From Helicobacter sp. 16-1353 (GTDB lineage: Bacteria; Campylobacterota; Campylobacteria; Campylobacterales; Helicobacteraceae), in assembly GCF_003288815.1 (NCBI RefSeq), contig NZ_NHYM01000001.1:62001-126000 (forward strand): a stretch of DNA of 64,000 nucleotides, in the 5' to 3' direction. The first letter of the stretch is position 1. Each line of letters begins with the position of its first letter. The position numbers and the translations under genes were made by a program. Below are positions 12,407 to 48,772 of this stretch, piece by piece. A model generated the notes under the pieces. That model worked only from the letters and a program-made list of their open reading frames with translations, was not told where the DNA came from and ran no database searches.

Positions 12407-12430
12407 TAAGATTCTAAAGGTTTTAAACAA

Positions 12431-15400
12431 ATGAATGATAAAGATTTGCAAAATGCACCACAAGGGAAAACTCCACAAAGCCACAATAATTATAATCCAA
12501 GTGAATTTGAGCCGAGATATTACGCGATATGGGAGGAGCGAGGCTATTTCAAGCTAGATTCTAATAAGGCGATACAAAATGGCAAGAATTTCTGCATTAT
12601 GATGCCTCCGCCAAATATCACCGGAGCCCTTCATATGGGACACGCGCTCACCTACACTTTGCAAGATATTATCACGCGATATAAGCGAATGGACGGCTTT
12701 CGTGTGCTTTGGCAGCCCGGAATCGACCACGCTGGGATTGCCACGCAAAATATCGTAGAAAAACAGCTCCTAGCAAAGGGTATAAAAAAAGAGGATATTG
12801 GCAGAGAGGCATTTTTAGATGCGGTATGGAAGTGGAAAGAGGAAAGCGGGGGAATGATACTCTCGCAGCTAAGGCGACTTGGGGCGTCGCCAAACTGGGA
12901 ACGACTTCGCTTCACTATGGATAAGGGGTTGCAAAATGCCGTCAAAAAGGCATTTGTAGAGTGGTATAACCGCGGACTGATTTTCCAAGATAATTATATG
13001 GTGAATTGGTGCACCCACGATGGAGCTTTAAGCGACATTGAGGTCGAGTATGAGGAAAACGCTGGGAAATTGTATTATATTAGATATTTTCTCGCAGATT
13101 CTATTGATTCCACTTCGCGGACGAACGAAGTCCGTCCTTGCGACGAAGGGCGTTGCCCTTTCGAAACCCCTGAAGCTTCGGAGACTTCGCTCCGAGAAGG
13201 CGAAGCTAAAAGCTTCGCTGTTAGTGGTGGCTCTTTAGTAGATTCACCACGAGATTCCAAGAATCTAGATTCCGCGGATTCCGCCCAATTTACACAAGAT
13301 TCCGCGAATCTAGATTCCACAGATTCCCCACGAGATTCCACAAACCCCAAAGACTACATCATCGTCGCCACAACGCGCCCGGAGACTTATTTTGGCGATA
13401 CTGCCGTTATGGTTAATCCAGAAGATTCTCGCTTTAAGCACCTAGTGGGGCGAAAAGTGCGTTTGCCATTGGTGAATAAGGAGATTAGCATTATTGCGGA
13501 TTCCTATGTGGATATGGAGTTTGGCACGGGCTGCGTGAAGGTAACTCCAGCACATGATATTAACGACTATGAGGTCGGCAAACGCCATAATTTGGACTTT
13601 ATCACCATATTTGATAAAAATGGGATTTTGAATGATTATTGCGGAGAGTTCGCTGGATTGGAGCGATTGGAGGCGAGGGACAAAATCGTAGAGGCACTCC
13701 AAAACGCCGGCTACATCGAAAAAATAGAAGATTATAACAACAAAATTGGCAAGTGCTATCGTTGTGGAAATGTGGTGGAGCCATATATCTCCACGCAGTG
13801 GTTCGTGGATAAGAAAATCGCCCAAGAAGCGATAGAAAAGGTAAATAACGGCGAAGCGAAGTTTTTCCCAACGCAATGGCTAAATAACTATAATGCGTGG
13901 ATGAGGGAGCTTCGCCACTGGTGCATTAGCCGTCAGCTTTGGTGGGGGCATAGAATCCCAGTGTTTTACTGCGATAAATGTGGCGTGAAAGTGGCAAGTG
14001 AGAGCGCGGAGGTCGTTTGCAAATGTGGGGCGAAAATGAGGCAGGATAGCGATGTCTTGGATACTTGGTTTAGCTCGGGGCTGTGGGCGTTTAGCACGCT
14101 TGGCTGGGGAAATGTGCCGGAGAATCTTTCTCAAAATGTGGGCGAAAATCCGGCTGGGAATCTTCTTGGGAATCCGCGTGAAACTTTAAGCGAAAATTCA
14201 GCACAGAATCCAGCACAGAATCCGCACGAAATTAAAGCCCAGAGTGCCGAGATTGAAGCCATAAAATCGCTCTATAATCCAAATGATTTGAATGACTTTT
14301 ACCCGAATTCGTTGCTTATTACTAGCTTTGATATTTTGTTTTTTTGGGTGGCTAGAATGCTTTTTAGCGGGGAAAGTATGCTTGGAAAGCTCCCATTTAG
14401 GGATATATATCTACACGCCCTAGTTTGCGATGAAAATGGTAATAAGATGAGCAAATCGCGTGGCAATGTGATAAATCCGCTTGAGTTGATTGAGTCCCAC
14501 AGCAGCGATGTTTTGCGATTTACCCTTGCTTATCACTGCATTCAAGGGCGAGACATTAGGATAAGCCAAAAGAGCCTAAATATCGGCAATGCGCTATTTC
14601 TAAAGGTGCTAAATGCACTAAATTTCTTATTAATGTATAAGGAGCAGCAAAAAGGCGAGTTTGTCCCGCTGGAGGGCATTAAATCGCCACTTGGGATTTA
14701 TATGAAAACTTGCTTTGAAAAAAGCGTGAGAGATATGCGAAATGCCCTAGATTCCTATCGATTTAACGATGCTGCGGGGGTTATCTATAAATTTTTATTT
14801 AATGATTTTTGCGACTGGGGGATTGAGCTAATCAAGGCGGAGAAACACGCTGTATTCGAGCTTGGGAGTATTTTTAGGGAATCTATGAAGTTACTCCACC
14901 CATTTATGCCTTTTGTTAGCGAGTTTGCCTATCAGGCGATAAATGGGACTATTTTGGAAGATTCTAGCTCGATTATGATTGAGAAATTTCCACAATGTAG
15001 GGAAAATGCAGAATCCGGTAAAATCGCAGAATCTGCGGAATCCGCTAAAGTTCCGGAATCTAGCCAAGCCCCGTATGTTGCGGAATTTGAGATAGTAAAA
15101 GACATCGTTACTTCCATAAGGAGGGCGAAAATCGCCATTGACTTTGCAAATAAAACTATTCCACTTAGCTACATCAAGCTTAATAAAACTGCGGATTTAG
15201 CCTTGCTTAGGGCGTTTATCCCCAAACTTGCAAAATGCGAAAAAATCGAGTTCGTAGAAGAGAAGCCAAAAAATTCGATTTTTGATATTTGTGATAGTGC
15301 CGAGATTTATATCCCAACGGAGGCGATTGACTTGGATTCCTTGCTACAAAAATTAGCAAAGAAAAAGGAGAAAATCTTGGGCGAAAAAGCGAAGCTAGAA

Positions 15401-15532
15401 TCTATGCTAAAAAATGAGAAATTCCTAGCAAATGCCCCAAAAAGCTTGATTTTGGATAATCAAAATGCGCTTGCAGGCGTAAATGAGAGGCTTGAGAAAA
15501 TCGAGGGCGAGATAAAAGCGCTAGAAATCTAG
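12431..15532 (+). CDS. valS: Valyl-tRNA synthetase with three low-complexity insertions
   Basis: ValS charges tRNA-Val. HIGH appears as HMGH in NITGALHMGHALTYTL and KMSKS is intact in GNKMSKSRGNVINPLE. The CP1 editing domain has VATTRPETYFGDTAVMV. The C-terminal coiled coil is present (KLAKKKEKILGEKAKLESML). At 1033 residues it is about 150 longer than usual because of three insertions: about residues 220-310, directly before the TTRPET editing motif; about 565-610, before FYPNSLLITSFDILFFW; and about 858-880, before the anticodon-binding tail. The insertions are rich in Asp-Ser, Asn-Pro or Glu-Ser and lie in surface-loop positions, so the enzyme should still work. Confidence 0.96.
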   Translation: MNDKDLQNAPQGKTPQSHNNYNPSEFEPRYYAIWEERGYFKLDSNKAIQNGKNFCIMMPPPNITGALHMGHALTYTLQDIITRYKRMDGFRVLWQPGIDHAGIATQNIVEKQLLAKGIKKEDIGREAFLDAVWKWKEESGGMILSQLRRLGASPNWERLRFTMDKGLQNAVKKAFVEWYNRGLIFQDNYMVNWCTHDGALSDIEVEYEENAGKLYYIRYFLADSIDSTSRTNEVRPCDEGRCPFETPEASETSLREGEAKSFAVSGGSLVDSPRDSKNLDSADSAQFTQDSANLDSTDSPRDSTNPKDYIIVATTRPETYFGDTAVMVNPEDSRFKHLVGRKVRLPLVNKEISIIADSYVDMEFGTGCVKVTPAHDINDYEVGKRHNLDFITIFDKNGILNDYCGEFAGLERLEARDKIVEALQNAGYIEKIEDYNNKIGKCYRCGNVVEPYISTQWFVDKKIAQEAIEKVNNGEAKFFPTQWLNNYNAWMRELRHWCISRQLWWGHRIPVFYCDKCGVKVASESAEVVCKCGAKMRQDSDVLDTWFSSGLWAFSTLGWGNVPENLSQNVGENPAGNLLGNPRETLSENSAQNPAQNPHEIKAQSAEIEAIKSLYNPNDLNDFYPNSLLITSFDILFFWVARMLFSGESMLGKLPFRDIYLHALVCDENGNKMSKSRGNVINPLELIESHSSDVLRFTLAYHCIQGRDIRISQKSLNIGNALFLKVLNALNFLLMYKEQQKGEFVPLEGIKSPLGIYMKTCFEKSVRDMRNALDSYRFNDAAGVIYKFLFNDFCDWGIELIKAEKHAVFELGSIFRESMKLLHPFMPFVSEFAYQAINGTILEDSSSIMIEKFPQCRENAESGKIAESAESAKVPESSQAPYVAEFEIVKDIVTSIRRAKIAIDFANKTIPLSYIKLNKTADLALLRAFIPKLAKCEKIEFVEEKPKNSIFDICDSAEIYIPTEAIDLDSLLQKLAKKKEKILGEKAKLESMLKNEKFLANAPKSLILDNQNALAGVNERLEKIEGEIKALEI
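13098..13345 (+). repeat. GATTC array with GC-rich palindromic block inside valS (insertion 1)
   Basis: About 12 GATTC/GAATC motifs by eye, read mostly as Asp-Ser. They flank a GC-rich block at 13112-13217 holding several short perfect hairpins: AAGGGC-GTT-GCCCTT, CGGAG-ACTTCG-CTCCG and CGAAGCT-AAA-AGCTTCG, plus CGGAC/GTCCG. The whole insertion keeps frame. Confidence 0.75.
14122..14225 (+). repeat. GAATC array inside valS (insertion 2)
   Basis: Five GAATC motifs in about 100 nt. They are read in the frame G-AAT-C, giving Asn-Leu and Asn-Pro, unlike the Asp-Ser/Glu-Ser reading elsewhere. Confidence 0.65.
15012..15065 (+). repeat. GAATC array inside valS (insertion 3)
   Basis: Four GAATC motifs read as Glu-Ser (AESGKIAESAESAKVPESS) between the catalytic body and the C-terminal region. 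Confidence 0.65.
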
Positions 15533-15553
15533 GTAATTTAAAAAGGGGATTTG

Positions 15554-16285
15554 GTGAAAAAAATATTATTGGTAGTTTTTTTTGGGCTTATTTTTTTGGG
15601 CTGTGGGGGAGAAAAAGAAAAAATATCTTATGCGACAATTGAAAAAAATCTTTTTAATGAGAATCTTGAGGGTGTTTTAAACCCGCTAGAATCGCAGATT
15701 GCTAAAAATCTAATCGTAGATTCTACTAAGAATAATTATAAATTAATTACAAGTGTGGAGTTGGAAAAAGTGCTTTATGGCGGGGGCTTTGGCGAATCTA
15801 AAACTCTAGGCGACTCGCAAGATTCTAAAAATGCTATAGATTCCGCGAATTCCGGCGAATCTAAAAAGGTGGCAGAATCTAAATCGCCCGGGGATTCTAA
15901 GGATTCCGCCAAATCTAGCGGAGATTCCGCGGATTCCACAAGTGCCACAGATTCTAGCAATTTGCAGATTATTACCACCATTCCGCGTGGAATCTATATT
16001 TTAGGATTTATTAAAGGGGCGAAAAACTTCGAGTTTAACGCTGATTTTAGCGGAGTTTGGGAGAGCGATACGAAAAACGAACAAGCAAAGTTTTTTGAAT
16101 TTTTGGGCGATAAAAATAACAAAATAATATTCTATGACAATGGCGAGAATAGTGCTAAGACTGGGGCTTTGTGGGCTAAGAAGCTGGGCTATAAAAATGT
16201 ATATTTACTTGCTGGGAATTTCCAAAGTTGGAGGGAAAATAATTTTGAAATTAGCTTTGATATGCCGGAATGTTGCCAAATGTAG
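15554..16285 (+). CDS. Rhodanese-like lipoprotein with degenerate active site
   Basis: 243 residues. The N-terminus is a lipoprotein signal (VKKILLVVFFGLIFLGCGG, lipobox FLGC). Residues about 170-240 look like a rhodanese fold: IIFYDNGENSAKTGALWAKKLG, then YKNVYLLAGNFQSWREN. The position of the catalytic Cys (normally C-x-x-G at the end of that strand) is Asp in FYDNGEN, so sulfurtransferase activity is unlikely. Residues about 78-138 are a GATTC-derived Ser/Asp-rich insertion. GTG 15554 is preferred over TTG 15551 because AAGGGGA then has proper spacing. It follows valS by 21 bp. Confidence 0.75.
   Translation: MKKILLVVFFGLIFLGCGGEKEKISYATIEKNLFNENLEGVLNPLESQIAKNLIVDSTKNNYKLITSVELEKVLYGGGFGESKTLGDSQDSKNAIDSANSGESKKVAESKSPGDSKDSAKSSGDSADSTSATDSSNLQIITTIPRGIYILGFIKGAKNFEFNADFSGVWESDTKNEQAKFFEFLGDKNNKIIFYDNGENSAKTGALWAKKLGYKNVYLLAGNFQSWRENNFEISFDMPECCQM
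15795..15960 (+). repeat. GATTC/GAATC array inside the rhodanese-like gene
   Basis: GAATCT and GATTCY units in tandem, read as ESK and DSK/DSA, between the lipoprotein N-terminus and the rhodanese domain. Confidence 0.7.
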
Positions 16286-16336
16286 GGCGTTTCAAGCGAT
16301 TTAAAGAATCTAAAAATAGGGAAAATGGGGGAGAGA

Positions 16337-17458
16337 ATGAAAAAGCTAGATTTGAGCCTTAGTATCATCGTGCCGTGCTTTAATGAGGAGGCAAATGTCA
16401 ATTTGTTTTACACCACACTTCTAAAAGTGCTAGGCGAATCTCCCAAAGATTCGGCAGATTCCGCTAAATCTAGCAGTTTAAAAAGCCAAGATTCTACAGA
16501 TTCCAAAAGAGCGGATTCCGCAGATTCTATAAGCCAAGATTCCATAGAATCCGCCCTTTTAGCAAAAATCGCAACAGATTCTCAAAAAGCCAAAAAGCCC
16601 AAACGCCCCAAATTAAATCTCCTAAAAAACTACGAAATTATCTTTGTAGACGACGGCAGCACGGACAAAACGATAGATAAAATTAGGGCTTTGCAGAAAA
16701 AGGATAAAAATATCCGCCTAATTAAATTTAGCCGTAATTTTGGCAAGGAAGCCGCAATGCTTGCTGGATTGAAAGCGGCAAAAAATACGCTTAGTTTTAT
16801 TATGGATTGCGACTTGCAAGACCCGCCGGAGCTACTTTGCACGATGATTGAAAAGTATATAAATAGCAATGGAGCCTTAAAAATAATCACAGCAAAGAGG
16901 AAGGATAGAAGTGGGGATTCTAAGCTTAGGGCGGTTTTTACAGAGATGTTTTACAAGGTGAATAATCTAATTTCGCCAATTAAGTTGCAATCAGGCGTGA
17001 GGGACTTTCGGCTGCTCCATAGGGACGCTCTCCAATCGATTTTATCGATGAATGAATATCATCGCTTTTCAAAGGCTATTTTTGAGTTTGTGGGCTTTCC
17101 AAAAGAGGTCGTTGAGTATGATTATATCGAGCGGAATGAGGGCGAATCCAAGTGGAATTTTTGGAAGCTTTTTGTTTATGCTATTGGTGGCATTGTGAGC
17201 TTTTCGACGGTGCCGCTTAAGATTATCACTTATGTTGGGATTGTGATATTTGCTCTAAGCTCGTTGTATGGGGCTTGGACGATAATAAATACGCTTATTT
17301 TTGGTAATCCTGTGAAAGGGTATCCAAGTATCGTTACGCTCATTGCCTTTTTTGGGGGTTTGCAGATAATTTTGCTAGGCGTAATTGGCGAGTATATCGC
17401 TAGAATCTACGAGCAGAGCAAGGGGCGACCGCATTATTTTATCGAGTATGAGGATTGA
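16337..17458 (+). CDS. GtrB-like membrane glycosyltransferase (GT2) with Asp-Ser insertion
   Basis: 373 residues of the DPM1/GtrB type, which transfers a sugar from a nucleotide donor to polyprenyl phosphate. The GT2 domain shows SIIVPCFNEEANV, YEIIFVDDGSTDKTID, KFSRNFGKEAAMLAGL and FIMDCDLQDPPELL; two C-terminal membrane segments lie around 285-350 (ALSSLYGAWTIINTLIF and GLQIILLGVIGEYIARIYEQ). An insertion of about 60 residues rich in DS follows the first helix at about 34-95. ATG 16337 is chosen over 16325 because a GGGGGAG ribosome-binding site lies before it. The following GtrII-like gene starts 2 bp after its stop and is the probable partner. Confidence 0.88.
   Translation: MKKLDLSLSIIVPCFNEEANVNLFYTTLLKVLGESPKDSADSAKSSSLKSQDSTDSKRADSADSISQDSIESALLAKIATDSQKAKKPKRPKLNLLKNYEIIFVDDGSTDKTIDKIRALQKKDKNIRLIKFSRNFGKEAAMLAGLKAAKNTLSFIMDCDLQDPPELLCTMIEKYINSNGALKIITAKRKDRSGDSKLRAVFTEMFYKVNNLISPIKLQSGVRDFRLLHRDALQSILSMNEYHRFSKAIFEFVGFPKEVVEYDYIERNEGESKWNFWKLFVYAIGGIVSFSTVPLKIITYVGIVIFALSSLYGAWTIINTLIFGNPVKGYPSIVTLIAFFGGLQIILLGVIGEYIARIYEQSKGRPHYFIEYED
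16435..16575 (+). repeat. GATTC/GAATC array inside the GtrB-like gene
   Basis: Tandem GAATCY and GATTCY units read as ES, DSADS and DSIES, splitting the N-terminal beta-alpha unit of the GT2 domain. Confidence 0.7.
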
Positions 17459-45520: not shown

Positions 45521-46558
45521 TTGGACTACCTTGTCTTGTATAAAGACCCATTATTTAGCATTATAATAATCATAGCAATAATCGTATTAGTAGCAATAGC
45601 CGACTACACAAGAAATAAATATAAGCAAAAAGTAAAAAGACAATCATTGGGTGATTTTGCTAAAAATTTTGAATATTATGGCATTGATGATAATATAAGC
45701 GGATTGATGGAAATATCAAAATATCCCACCTCAACACTAACTTTTATTGCAGATATTTATGTTACAAATGGCAATTTTAGCGAAGCCATTAAAATATATC
45801 TCACCATACTTGATAAAACGCAGAATCTTAAAGATAAAATGGAGGTTTTAGAGCTTTTGGGATTGGCTTATTATAAAGCTGGTTTTATGCAAAGGGCTAA
45901 AAATATATTTATTGAGATTCTAAAAAATAATCCAAGAAATGTAAAAGTTCTCTCACTCCTTATGCAAACCTATGAGATTCTAGGCGAATATAAAAATGCT
46001 TTTTCTGTAATATCCTGTCTTGAAGAATTGGACGAAAATATCGATGAAGTAAAAAAATATATGCAGATTTTAATTTTAATAAATGACAGCATAATGCCTC
46101 TAAAAGAGCGAGAAAGGGAGATTCTAAGGATAAATAAAGATAGTAAAATCACAAATAAAATTGTATTAAATTATCTCAAAACATATAATATTCAAGGATT
46201 CTGGGATTTGATAAGCAAAAGTGATAATATCTATAATTACATTGATATATTGTGGAATCTAAAAAATCCAAATCTAGATAAAATAAAAAATAACAAGCAA
46301 ATAAGCGATGTTTATCGTGCAAAGGGCATTATTTGTGATGATATAAAATGCGATATTTTTGAGCTAGAAACACTTAGGGTTTTACATAAATATTCTAGTA
46401 AAAAGGGCAATCTTGGTTTTAAATATCGATGTAGTTCTTGTCAGGGAATCTATCCATTTGAAACGACTAGATGTCCTACTTGTGGCGAATTAGGAAGTAT
46501 AAATCTAGTATTAGAGATTATGGAGGCAAAATTTGAAAAAAATTACTCTTTATTGTGA
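45521..46558 (+). CDS. LapB/YciM-like membrane-anchored TPR protein with zinc ribbon
   Basis: 345 residues. One N-terminal membrane segment ([18 protein letters not shown]) is followed by TPR repeats ([62 protein letters not shown]) and a C-terminal rubredoxin-like ribbon, [20 protein letters not shown]. This is the architecture of E. coli LapB, which controls LpxC degradation and LPS assembly; the same job here is inferred. Its end overlaps the RNase H frame by 26 bp. Same gene order as in H. pylori upstream of rnhA. Confidence 0.82.
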
Positions 46559-47702
46559 TGGCTCATCGTTGGGAAATCCCGGCTTTGGTGGATGGTGTGC
46601 GATATTACAATACAATAAAAATCGCAAGATATTAAAAGGTGGGGAGATAGACACAACAAATAATAGAATGGAACTAAAGGCTGTTATTGAGGGATTAAAA
46701 AATATCAAAGAACCTTGTAAAATAGAGATTATAAGCGATTCTGGATATGTTTGTAATGGCATTAATAAATGGCTGGAGAATTGGAAACTTAAGGATTTTA
46801 AAAAAGTAAAAAATCCAGATTTATGGCGGGAATTTGACGCCCTATCCCAAAATCACAGCATAAAAGCAACTTGGGTAAGAGGACATAACGGACATAAAGA
46901 AAACGAGGAATGCGACAGCATAGCAAGAGAAGAAGCAAGTAAAATAAAAAATGCTAGTTTAAAAGATGAGTATAAAAGCCTTACAAAACAAGATTCAAAT
47001 ACAGCAATATATACAAACAATATAGATGTATTAGAATCATTCCAAAAAAATATTAAATATTTTTTCAAAGATAAGAATCTACTAACTCTCGCTCTTACGC
47101 ATAAAAGTTATGATAAAAAAAATAATAATGAAAGATTAGAATTTCTAGGAGATGCTGTCCTTGACCTGCTCGTTGGGGAATATGTGTTTAAAAAACTTCC
47201 CAAAAGTGATGAGGGTGATTTAACGAAACTTCGTGCTTCAATGGTAAATGAATCTAGCTTCACCAAACTTGCATTAGCGATTAATCTAGGGGATTATTTA
47301 TTCATATCAAATGCAGAAATTAGAAATAATGGCAGAAATAAACCCTCTATTTTATCAAATGCTTTTGAAGCATTAATCGGCTCTATTTACCTTGATGGTG
47401 GTTTAGAAAAGGCTAGAATCTTAAGCTACAATCTACTTGAATATGTTTATACAACCATTGATTTAGATAGTTTATTTAAAGATTACAAAACCTTATTGCA
47501 AGAGCTTACACAAAGCATTTGTGGTGTTATTCCGGAATATATTTTAGTGGATTCAAGCGGTCCAGACCATAATAAAAGCTTTATAATGAAGATTATTATA
47601 AATGGTATAGAATATGCCAAAGAAAGCGGAAAAAGCAAGAAAGAAGCGGAGCAAAATTGTGCGAAAAGAGCCTATGAAAGTTTTAAGAGAGAGAAGTTAT
47701 GA
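46533..47702 (+). CDS. RNase HI - RNase III fusion protein
   Basis: 389 residues in one uninterrupted frame. Residues 1-143 are RNase HI with all four carboxylates: D9 in [13 protein letters not shown]47 in NNRMELKA, D69 in [11 protein letters not shown] and D128 in [11 protein letters not shown] linker (about 144-168) leads to RNase [21 protein letters not shown] (200-216), [15 protein letters not shown] and a C-terminal dsRBD with DYKTLLQEL and [19 protein letters not shown]. The usual Asp before FEALIG is Asn, as in C. jejuni from memory. In H. pylori rnhA and rnc are separate adjacent genes before aroC; here no stop separates them and the linker holds no ATG, GTG or TTG in frame, so RNase III cannot start on its own by a canonical codon. 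Start is TTG 46533. Confidence 0.9.
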
Positions 47703-48772
47703 ATACATTTGGAAAGCTATTTAGAATCACCACATTTGGAGAATCTCACGGAAGCGGTATTGGCTGTGTAATTGATGGAATGCCAGCTGGGATTTTTATT
47801 GACTTAGAATTTATACAAGAAGAGCTAAATAGACGCAAAGGCGGACAAAACACATATGCAACACAAAGAAAAGAAGAGGATAGAATCCAGATTCTAAGTG
47901 GCGTATTTGAGGGATATTCCACTGGAATGCCCATTGGAATCTTTATTGAAAATAACAACACAAAAAGCAAGGATTACGATGGCATAAAAGATTTATTTCG
48001 CCCGGGACATGGTGATTTTACATATTTTCATAAATATGGCATTAGGGATTATAGAGGTGGCGGGAGAAGTAGTGCTAGGGAAAGTGTAGCTAGGGTTGCA
48101 AGTGGAGCATTTGCAAAACTAATATTAAGAGAATTTAATATAGAAACAAAAAGTGGAATCTTACAAATAGGCGAGATTCAAGCACAAAAAATAGATTTCG
48201 CAAATGCCAGAAAAAGTGAGATTTTTAGCCTTGATAAAGATGTGGAGAATCTACAAAAAGAAATAATAATAAATACAAAAAAATCCCACGATAGTATAGG
48301 AGGAGTGGCACTTATAAGTGCATTTAATATTCCCATTGGGCTTGGAGAACCGCTATATTATAAGCTAGATTCTGCGATAGGTGAGCTAATGCTTGGATTA
48401 AATGGCGTAAAGGCAGTAGAAATAGGCGATGGCATAAATAGTGCTAAATCATTAGGAAGTAGCAATAATGACCAAATTAGAAAAAGCGGATTTACAAGCA
48501 ATCATAGTGGCGGAATCTTAGGCGGTATAAGCAACGGAGAACAAATTAATATAAAGGTGTATTTTAAACCCACTCCAAGTATTTTTAAACCACAAAAAAC
48601 AATTGATGAAAATAAAAATGAGGTAGATTTAATGCTAAAGGGCAGACACGACCCTTGCATTGCAATAAGGGGAAGTGTAGTAGCAGAATCTCTACTTGCG
48701 ATAATATTAGCAGATATGCTTTTATTAAATATGGTATCCAAAATAGAGCATTTAAAGAAAATATACAAATAA
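47699..48772 (+). CDS. aroC: Chorismate synthase
   Basis: 357 residues; converts EPSP to chorismate using reduced [88 protein letters not shown] and [12 protein letters not shown] are all present. Its ATG overlaps the stop of the RNase fusion by 4 bp (ATGA), so the LapB-like, RNase and aroC genes form one coupled operon. Confidence 0.97.

Follow-up and report, generated by a model that had tools for sequence, protein, structure and literature searches.

RNase HI cleaves the RNA strand of RNA-DNA hybrids, and RNase III, which works as a homodimer, cuts double-stranded RNA. The usual form of RNase HI (rnhA; E. coli 1rch/2rn2) is a stand-alone protein some 150 residues long, whereas the protein described here shares its full domain, catalytic D/E/D/D residues, and conserved His, and carries an RNase III at the C-terminus. 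With class I RNase III (rnc; C. jejuni 3n3w/3o2r) it shares the catalytic domain, the signature motif, and the C-terminal dsRNA-binding domain (dsRBD), but in this version an RNase HI precedes them and RNase III lacks a separate start. The same bacterial family offers a known in-frame fusion of neighbouring operon genes, namely rpoB-rpoC of Helicobacter. No described fusion of RNase HI with RNase III was found in the open-access literature, and within the literature searched the initial annotation, which knew of no described precedent, stands. We analyzed a stretch of 64,000 nucleotides from Helicobacter sp. 16-1353 (the window, whose coordinates are used throughout), in which both enzymes were encoded by one frame. 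With high confidence, we read this gene as a genuine fusion of overlapping operon genes, with a single-chain product containing both domains.

The fused rnhA-rnc frame

A single open frame of 389 codons on the plus strand encoded RNase HI, a linker, and RNase III with a dsRBD. The features of the locus were as follows.

45521..46558, + strand: gene of a TPR-repeat protein, the upstream neighbour; its end extends over the first codons of the fused gene, and the same neighbour is found in other fused genomes
46522..46526, + strand: GGAGG ribosome-binding site, 6 nt 5' of the TTG start (from the sequence)
46533..47702, + strand: fused rnhA-rnc gene, 389 aa, TTG start, TGA stop
46533..46952, + strand: RNase HI part, residues 1-140, with D9, E47, D69, D128, and H118 present (PF00075, NCBIfam PRK00203.1, alignment)
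46953..47027, + strand: linker, residues 141-165, without in-frame start or ribosome-binding site; model confidence low at about 151-160
47028..47699, + strand: RNase III part, residues 166-389, with the RNase III signature motif and E279 (TIGR02191, PF14622, PF00636, alignment)
47484..47678, + strand: dsRBD of the RNase III part, residues 318-382 (PF00035)
47699..48772, + strand: aroC (chorismate synthase), the downstream neighbour, whose start and the fused gene's stop overlap as ATGA

The open frame and the Pfam and NCBIfam domains agreed with the initial annotation, which had proposed one protein of 389 residues with a 25-residue linker, all four catalytic carboxylates of RNase HI, and the gene order rnhA, rnc before aroC. 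Pfam placed RNase_H at residues 2-135 (E 1.5e-41), Ribonucleas_3_3 at 180-295 (1.8e-36), Ribonuclease_3 at 200-290 (3e-24), and dsrm at 318-382 (2.5e-18). The first half matched the RNase H fold with 142 bits to PF00075 and 195 bits to PRK00203.1 (equivalog cut-off 160), and the second half had the domain, signature motif, and dsRBD of class I RNase III, with 232 bits to TIGR02191 (cut-off 166). The solved structures closest to the first half were E. coli-type RNase HI, and the closest to the second was C. jejuni RNase III 3n3w (E 8.9e-68); among the 60 best PDB matches listed, no structure spanned both domains.

It had also been claimed that RNase III has no start of its own in the linker, and this was confirmed: no in-frame ATG, GTG, or TTG was present at codons 136-200 of the fused gene, and no GGAG, AGGA, GAGG, or AAGG within 46930-47060. 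The 40-codon span around the linker contained no in-frame stop, which had a chance of 1.5% by base shuffling, with the two intact domains not yet counted. In the source genome (1.9 Mb, 32 contigs, 99.9% complete, the one genome representing this species), the fused gene was the only RNase III match and the only RNase HI match found, and rnhB (RNase HII) was located elsewhere. As the sole rnc and RNase HI found, the fused gene has to account for both functions, provided that both exist.

The junction in same-genus relatives

In all four same-genus relatives (G001-G004), rnhA and rnc were separate. The two genes were in the same frame in G001, with stops and a 9-nt gap between them; they overlapped via ATGA in different frames in G002 and G004, and overlapped in G003 as well. 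A nucleotide alignment of the junction revealed extra bases in the window, the AAAGG...ATGA of G004 aligning to AAAAGATGAG. In that segment the ATG has dropped out of frame with RNase III, and the purine-rich ribosome-binding site has become weaker, with AAAAG in place of the AAAGG of G004. Simple loss of the rnhA stop, by which the initial annotation had explained the fusion, is thus not enough: because the genes of G002 and G004 overlap in different frames, the transition involved net shifts of frame and an insertion, and rnc lost its ribosome-binding site and start. If the ATGA of G004 is homologous, at least two frame-changing events lie between the separate and fused states. In Campylobacterota, rnhA and rnc usually adjoin within a single operon, and the two often share a few bases. 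A likely course from that state is that small indels at the overlap took out the rnhA stop and joined the reading frames, after which rnc would have lost its ribosome-binding site and its start codon.

A different explanation is a sequencing or assembly error, in which a missed base makes two separate genes look fused. The separate genes of all four relatives point in this direction, as does the A/T-rich region with its short A runs, and one base inserted in any of several stretches of 46954-47034 would split the frame into two overlapping genes, the second starting at an ATG. We enumerated these single-base alternatives and judged a single missing base unlikely as the whole explanation. In none of them was the rnc ATG preceded by a ribosome-binding site, which the rnc of the relatives has, and several created an overlap of 32-92 nt. 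The quality of the contig was assessed over 280 kb by comparison with G004, where both genomes had 137 of 145 conserved ORFs at full length. The remaining 8, the fused gene included, were always longer in the window genome, so that none of its 145 looked frameshift-truncated. Moreover, the same architecture was present in four species of the genus g66, three of them assembled in 1-3 contigs. An assembly error here is unlikely, since the ancestral ribosome-binding site and start of rnc are gone and no frameshifted gene was seen over 280 kb; with all the evidence weighed, we consider such an error very improbable.

Another difference from G004 lay elsewhere in the window. At 12410-17455, three consecutive conserved genes (a valyl/leucyl-type tRNA synthetase, a rhodanese-like protein, and a glycosyltransferase 2) had low-complexity Asp-Ser-rich inserts, for example DSADSAQFTQDSANLDSTDSPRDST, which were absent from G004. 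At least four DS dipeptides in 30 residues occurred in 12 of 238 ORFs (280 kb of the window contig) versus 3 of 362 (400 kb of G004).

Recurrence across Campylobacterota

We searched a sample of about 590 Campylobacterota genomes, in nearly all of which rnhA and rnc were separate and usually adjacent. Both domains were in one frame in at least seven genomes: that of the window, four species of g66, and G439 and G438 of the genus g46. Seven is a minimum, as the searches give matches below set E-values. The first 119 relatives had suggested that the fusion was unique, a view overturned by the g66 and g46 fusions. The initial annotation had treated the fusion as a singular oddity and had called for a search across Helicobacter. 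This description holds within the Helicobacteraceae sample, where only the window genome had the fusion, but not beyond it, as the fusion recurs in Campylobacter; the search itself recovered it in g66 and g46.

All four species of g66 had the fused gene between the TPR and aroC genes, and the same two neighbours flanked it in G439, as in the window. One of the g66 genomes, G394, was identified as Campylobacter sp. RM12651 by 100% identity of two plasmid contigs; this strain came from a Canada goose and is closest to C. canadensis (PMC10975922). In g46, four other species had separate genes with a TAG between them. G439 and G438 are draft genomes, and the contig of G438 ends inside the fused gene, with the TPR neighbour seen upstream. 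The uninterrupted two-domain frame was complete in the window, in the four g66 loci (L112-L115), and in L122, while L126 ran off its contig. D9, E47, D69, D128, and the conserved His were invariant in an alignment of the six full-length fused proteins.

Several other candidates were rejected. The long RNase III frames of G161, G052, G095, G011, and G156 were not fusions, RNase HI being a separate ORF in each. That of G047 had no RNase HI in the stretch taken, and its RNase HI was elsewhere on the chromosome. G047 belongs to the genus g13, in which (G065, G027, G047, G057, G016, and G037) the RNase HI and RNase III matches lay either on separate contigs or far from each other. From these positions, rnhA and rnc seem to have lost their adjacency in this genus.

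We built an unrooted tree from 121 RNase III sequences; many of its branches were weak, and the well-supported ones were starred. The window gene lay among the separate genes of its own genus, the g66 genes formed one clade with full support, and the fused g46 pair grouped with separate g46 relatives. On this tree the fused state needs four changes, at least three of them forced by starred branches, and descent of all the fused genes from one common ancestor was accordingly rejected. Changes on an unrooted tree cannot alone distinguish gains from losses; gains are simpler, as separate genes are almost universal in the sample. The fusion therefore probably arose at least three times independently.

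The four g66 species allowed us to follow the fused gene after its formation. Synonymous sites were saturated (pS about 0.5-0.67), while both domains were conserved, with a pN of 0.10-0.26 in RNase HI and 0.08-0.17 in RNase III. The linker diverged almost freely, with indels that were all multiples of three and with no stop, although it would be stop-free by chance in only 3-5% of cases per species at its A/T content. Read from these substitution patterns, the g66 genes show a fusion tolerated over long evolution. One could argue that one domain of the fused protein is degenerate and the other alone is active, as the GHxGH stretch of RNase HI is AHNGD in all four g66 proteins, the first His being kept and the second replaced. 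The invariant carboxylates and conserved His speak against such decay, as does the purifying selection on RNase HI in g66, where its pN stayed well below a pS of 0.51-0.67, and we find this explanation hardly credible.

Predicted product and comparison with known systems

An AlphaFold2 monomer model of the fused protein had a mean pLDDT of 94, falling to about 50 at residues 151-160, and a pTM of 0.59. The model suggests two well-folded units on either side of an ill-defined stretch, with a mutual orientation that the prediction does not fix. Translation from the one TTG start would give one chain of about 44 kDa, with RNase HI tethered to RNase III. We infer that one full-length protein would be made and that both activities would persist; double enzymatic activity of the fused protein is plausible. 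Since RNase III is active as a homodimer, the fused protein would be expected to dimerize through RNase III, each subunit adding an RNase HI domain tethered by a short flexible linker.

It is also conceivable, if unlikely, that the gene is fused and the protein separated, either because the linker is cleaved or because RNase III is translated alone, through internal initiation or from a non-standard ATT/ATA start. The linker would be exposed, given its short length, low model confidence, and nearly free divergence in g66, and L114, L115, L122, and L126 have some ATG, GTG, or TTG near the RNase HI end or in the linker. Against separation, the window linker offers neither a standard start nor a ribosome-binding motif, and L112 and L113 likewise have no standard start between the domains. 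We continue to favour a single chain.

Whether such a chain brings an advantage through tethering or is a nearly neutral outcome of overlapping operon genes bears on its recurrence. The neutral route fits well, since the adjacency of rnhA and rnc makes neutral fusion easy, and this would explain why it recurs. We give little credence to a more elaborate proposal, in which RNase III dimerization presents paired RNase HI domains, one particle processes hybrids and dsRNA at the same sites, and selection has built it repeatedly in Campylobacterota; R-loops with antisense transcripts would be examples of such sites. A two-activity chain that formed more than once and was kept in a Campylobacter clade would be a natural test of whether tethering benefits the two activities. 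The fusion would also fix the stoichiometry of RNase HI and RNase III, and the case illustrates a route from overlapping operon genes to fused proteins. An annotation that names the fused protein after one half would hide the other.

Two further known systems resemble this arrangement. The bifunctional RNase H/acid phosphatase (PRK07238) likewise joins a bacterial RNase HI to a second catalytic domain at the C-terminus; the partner domain differs, and the window protein was rejected as a member, since the cut-off is 326 bits and it scored 30.7, all within the RNase H part. The rpoB-rpoC fusion of Helicobacter joins two subunits of one complex, whereas rnhA-rnc joins two enzymes of different substrates, and the window protein is a new architecture made of two known enzymes.
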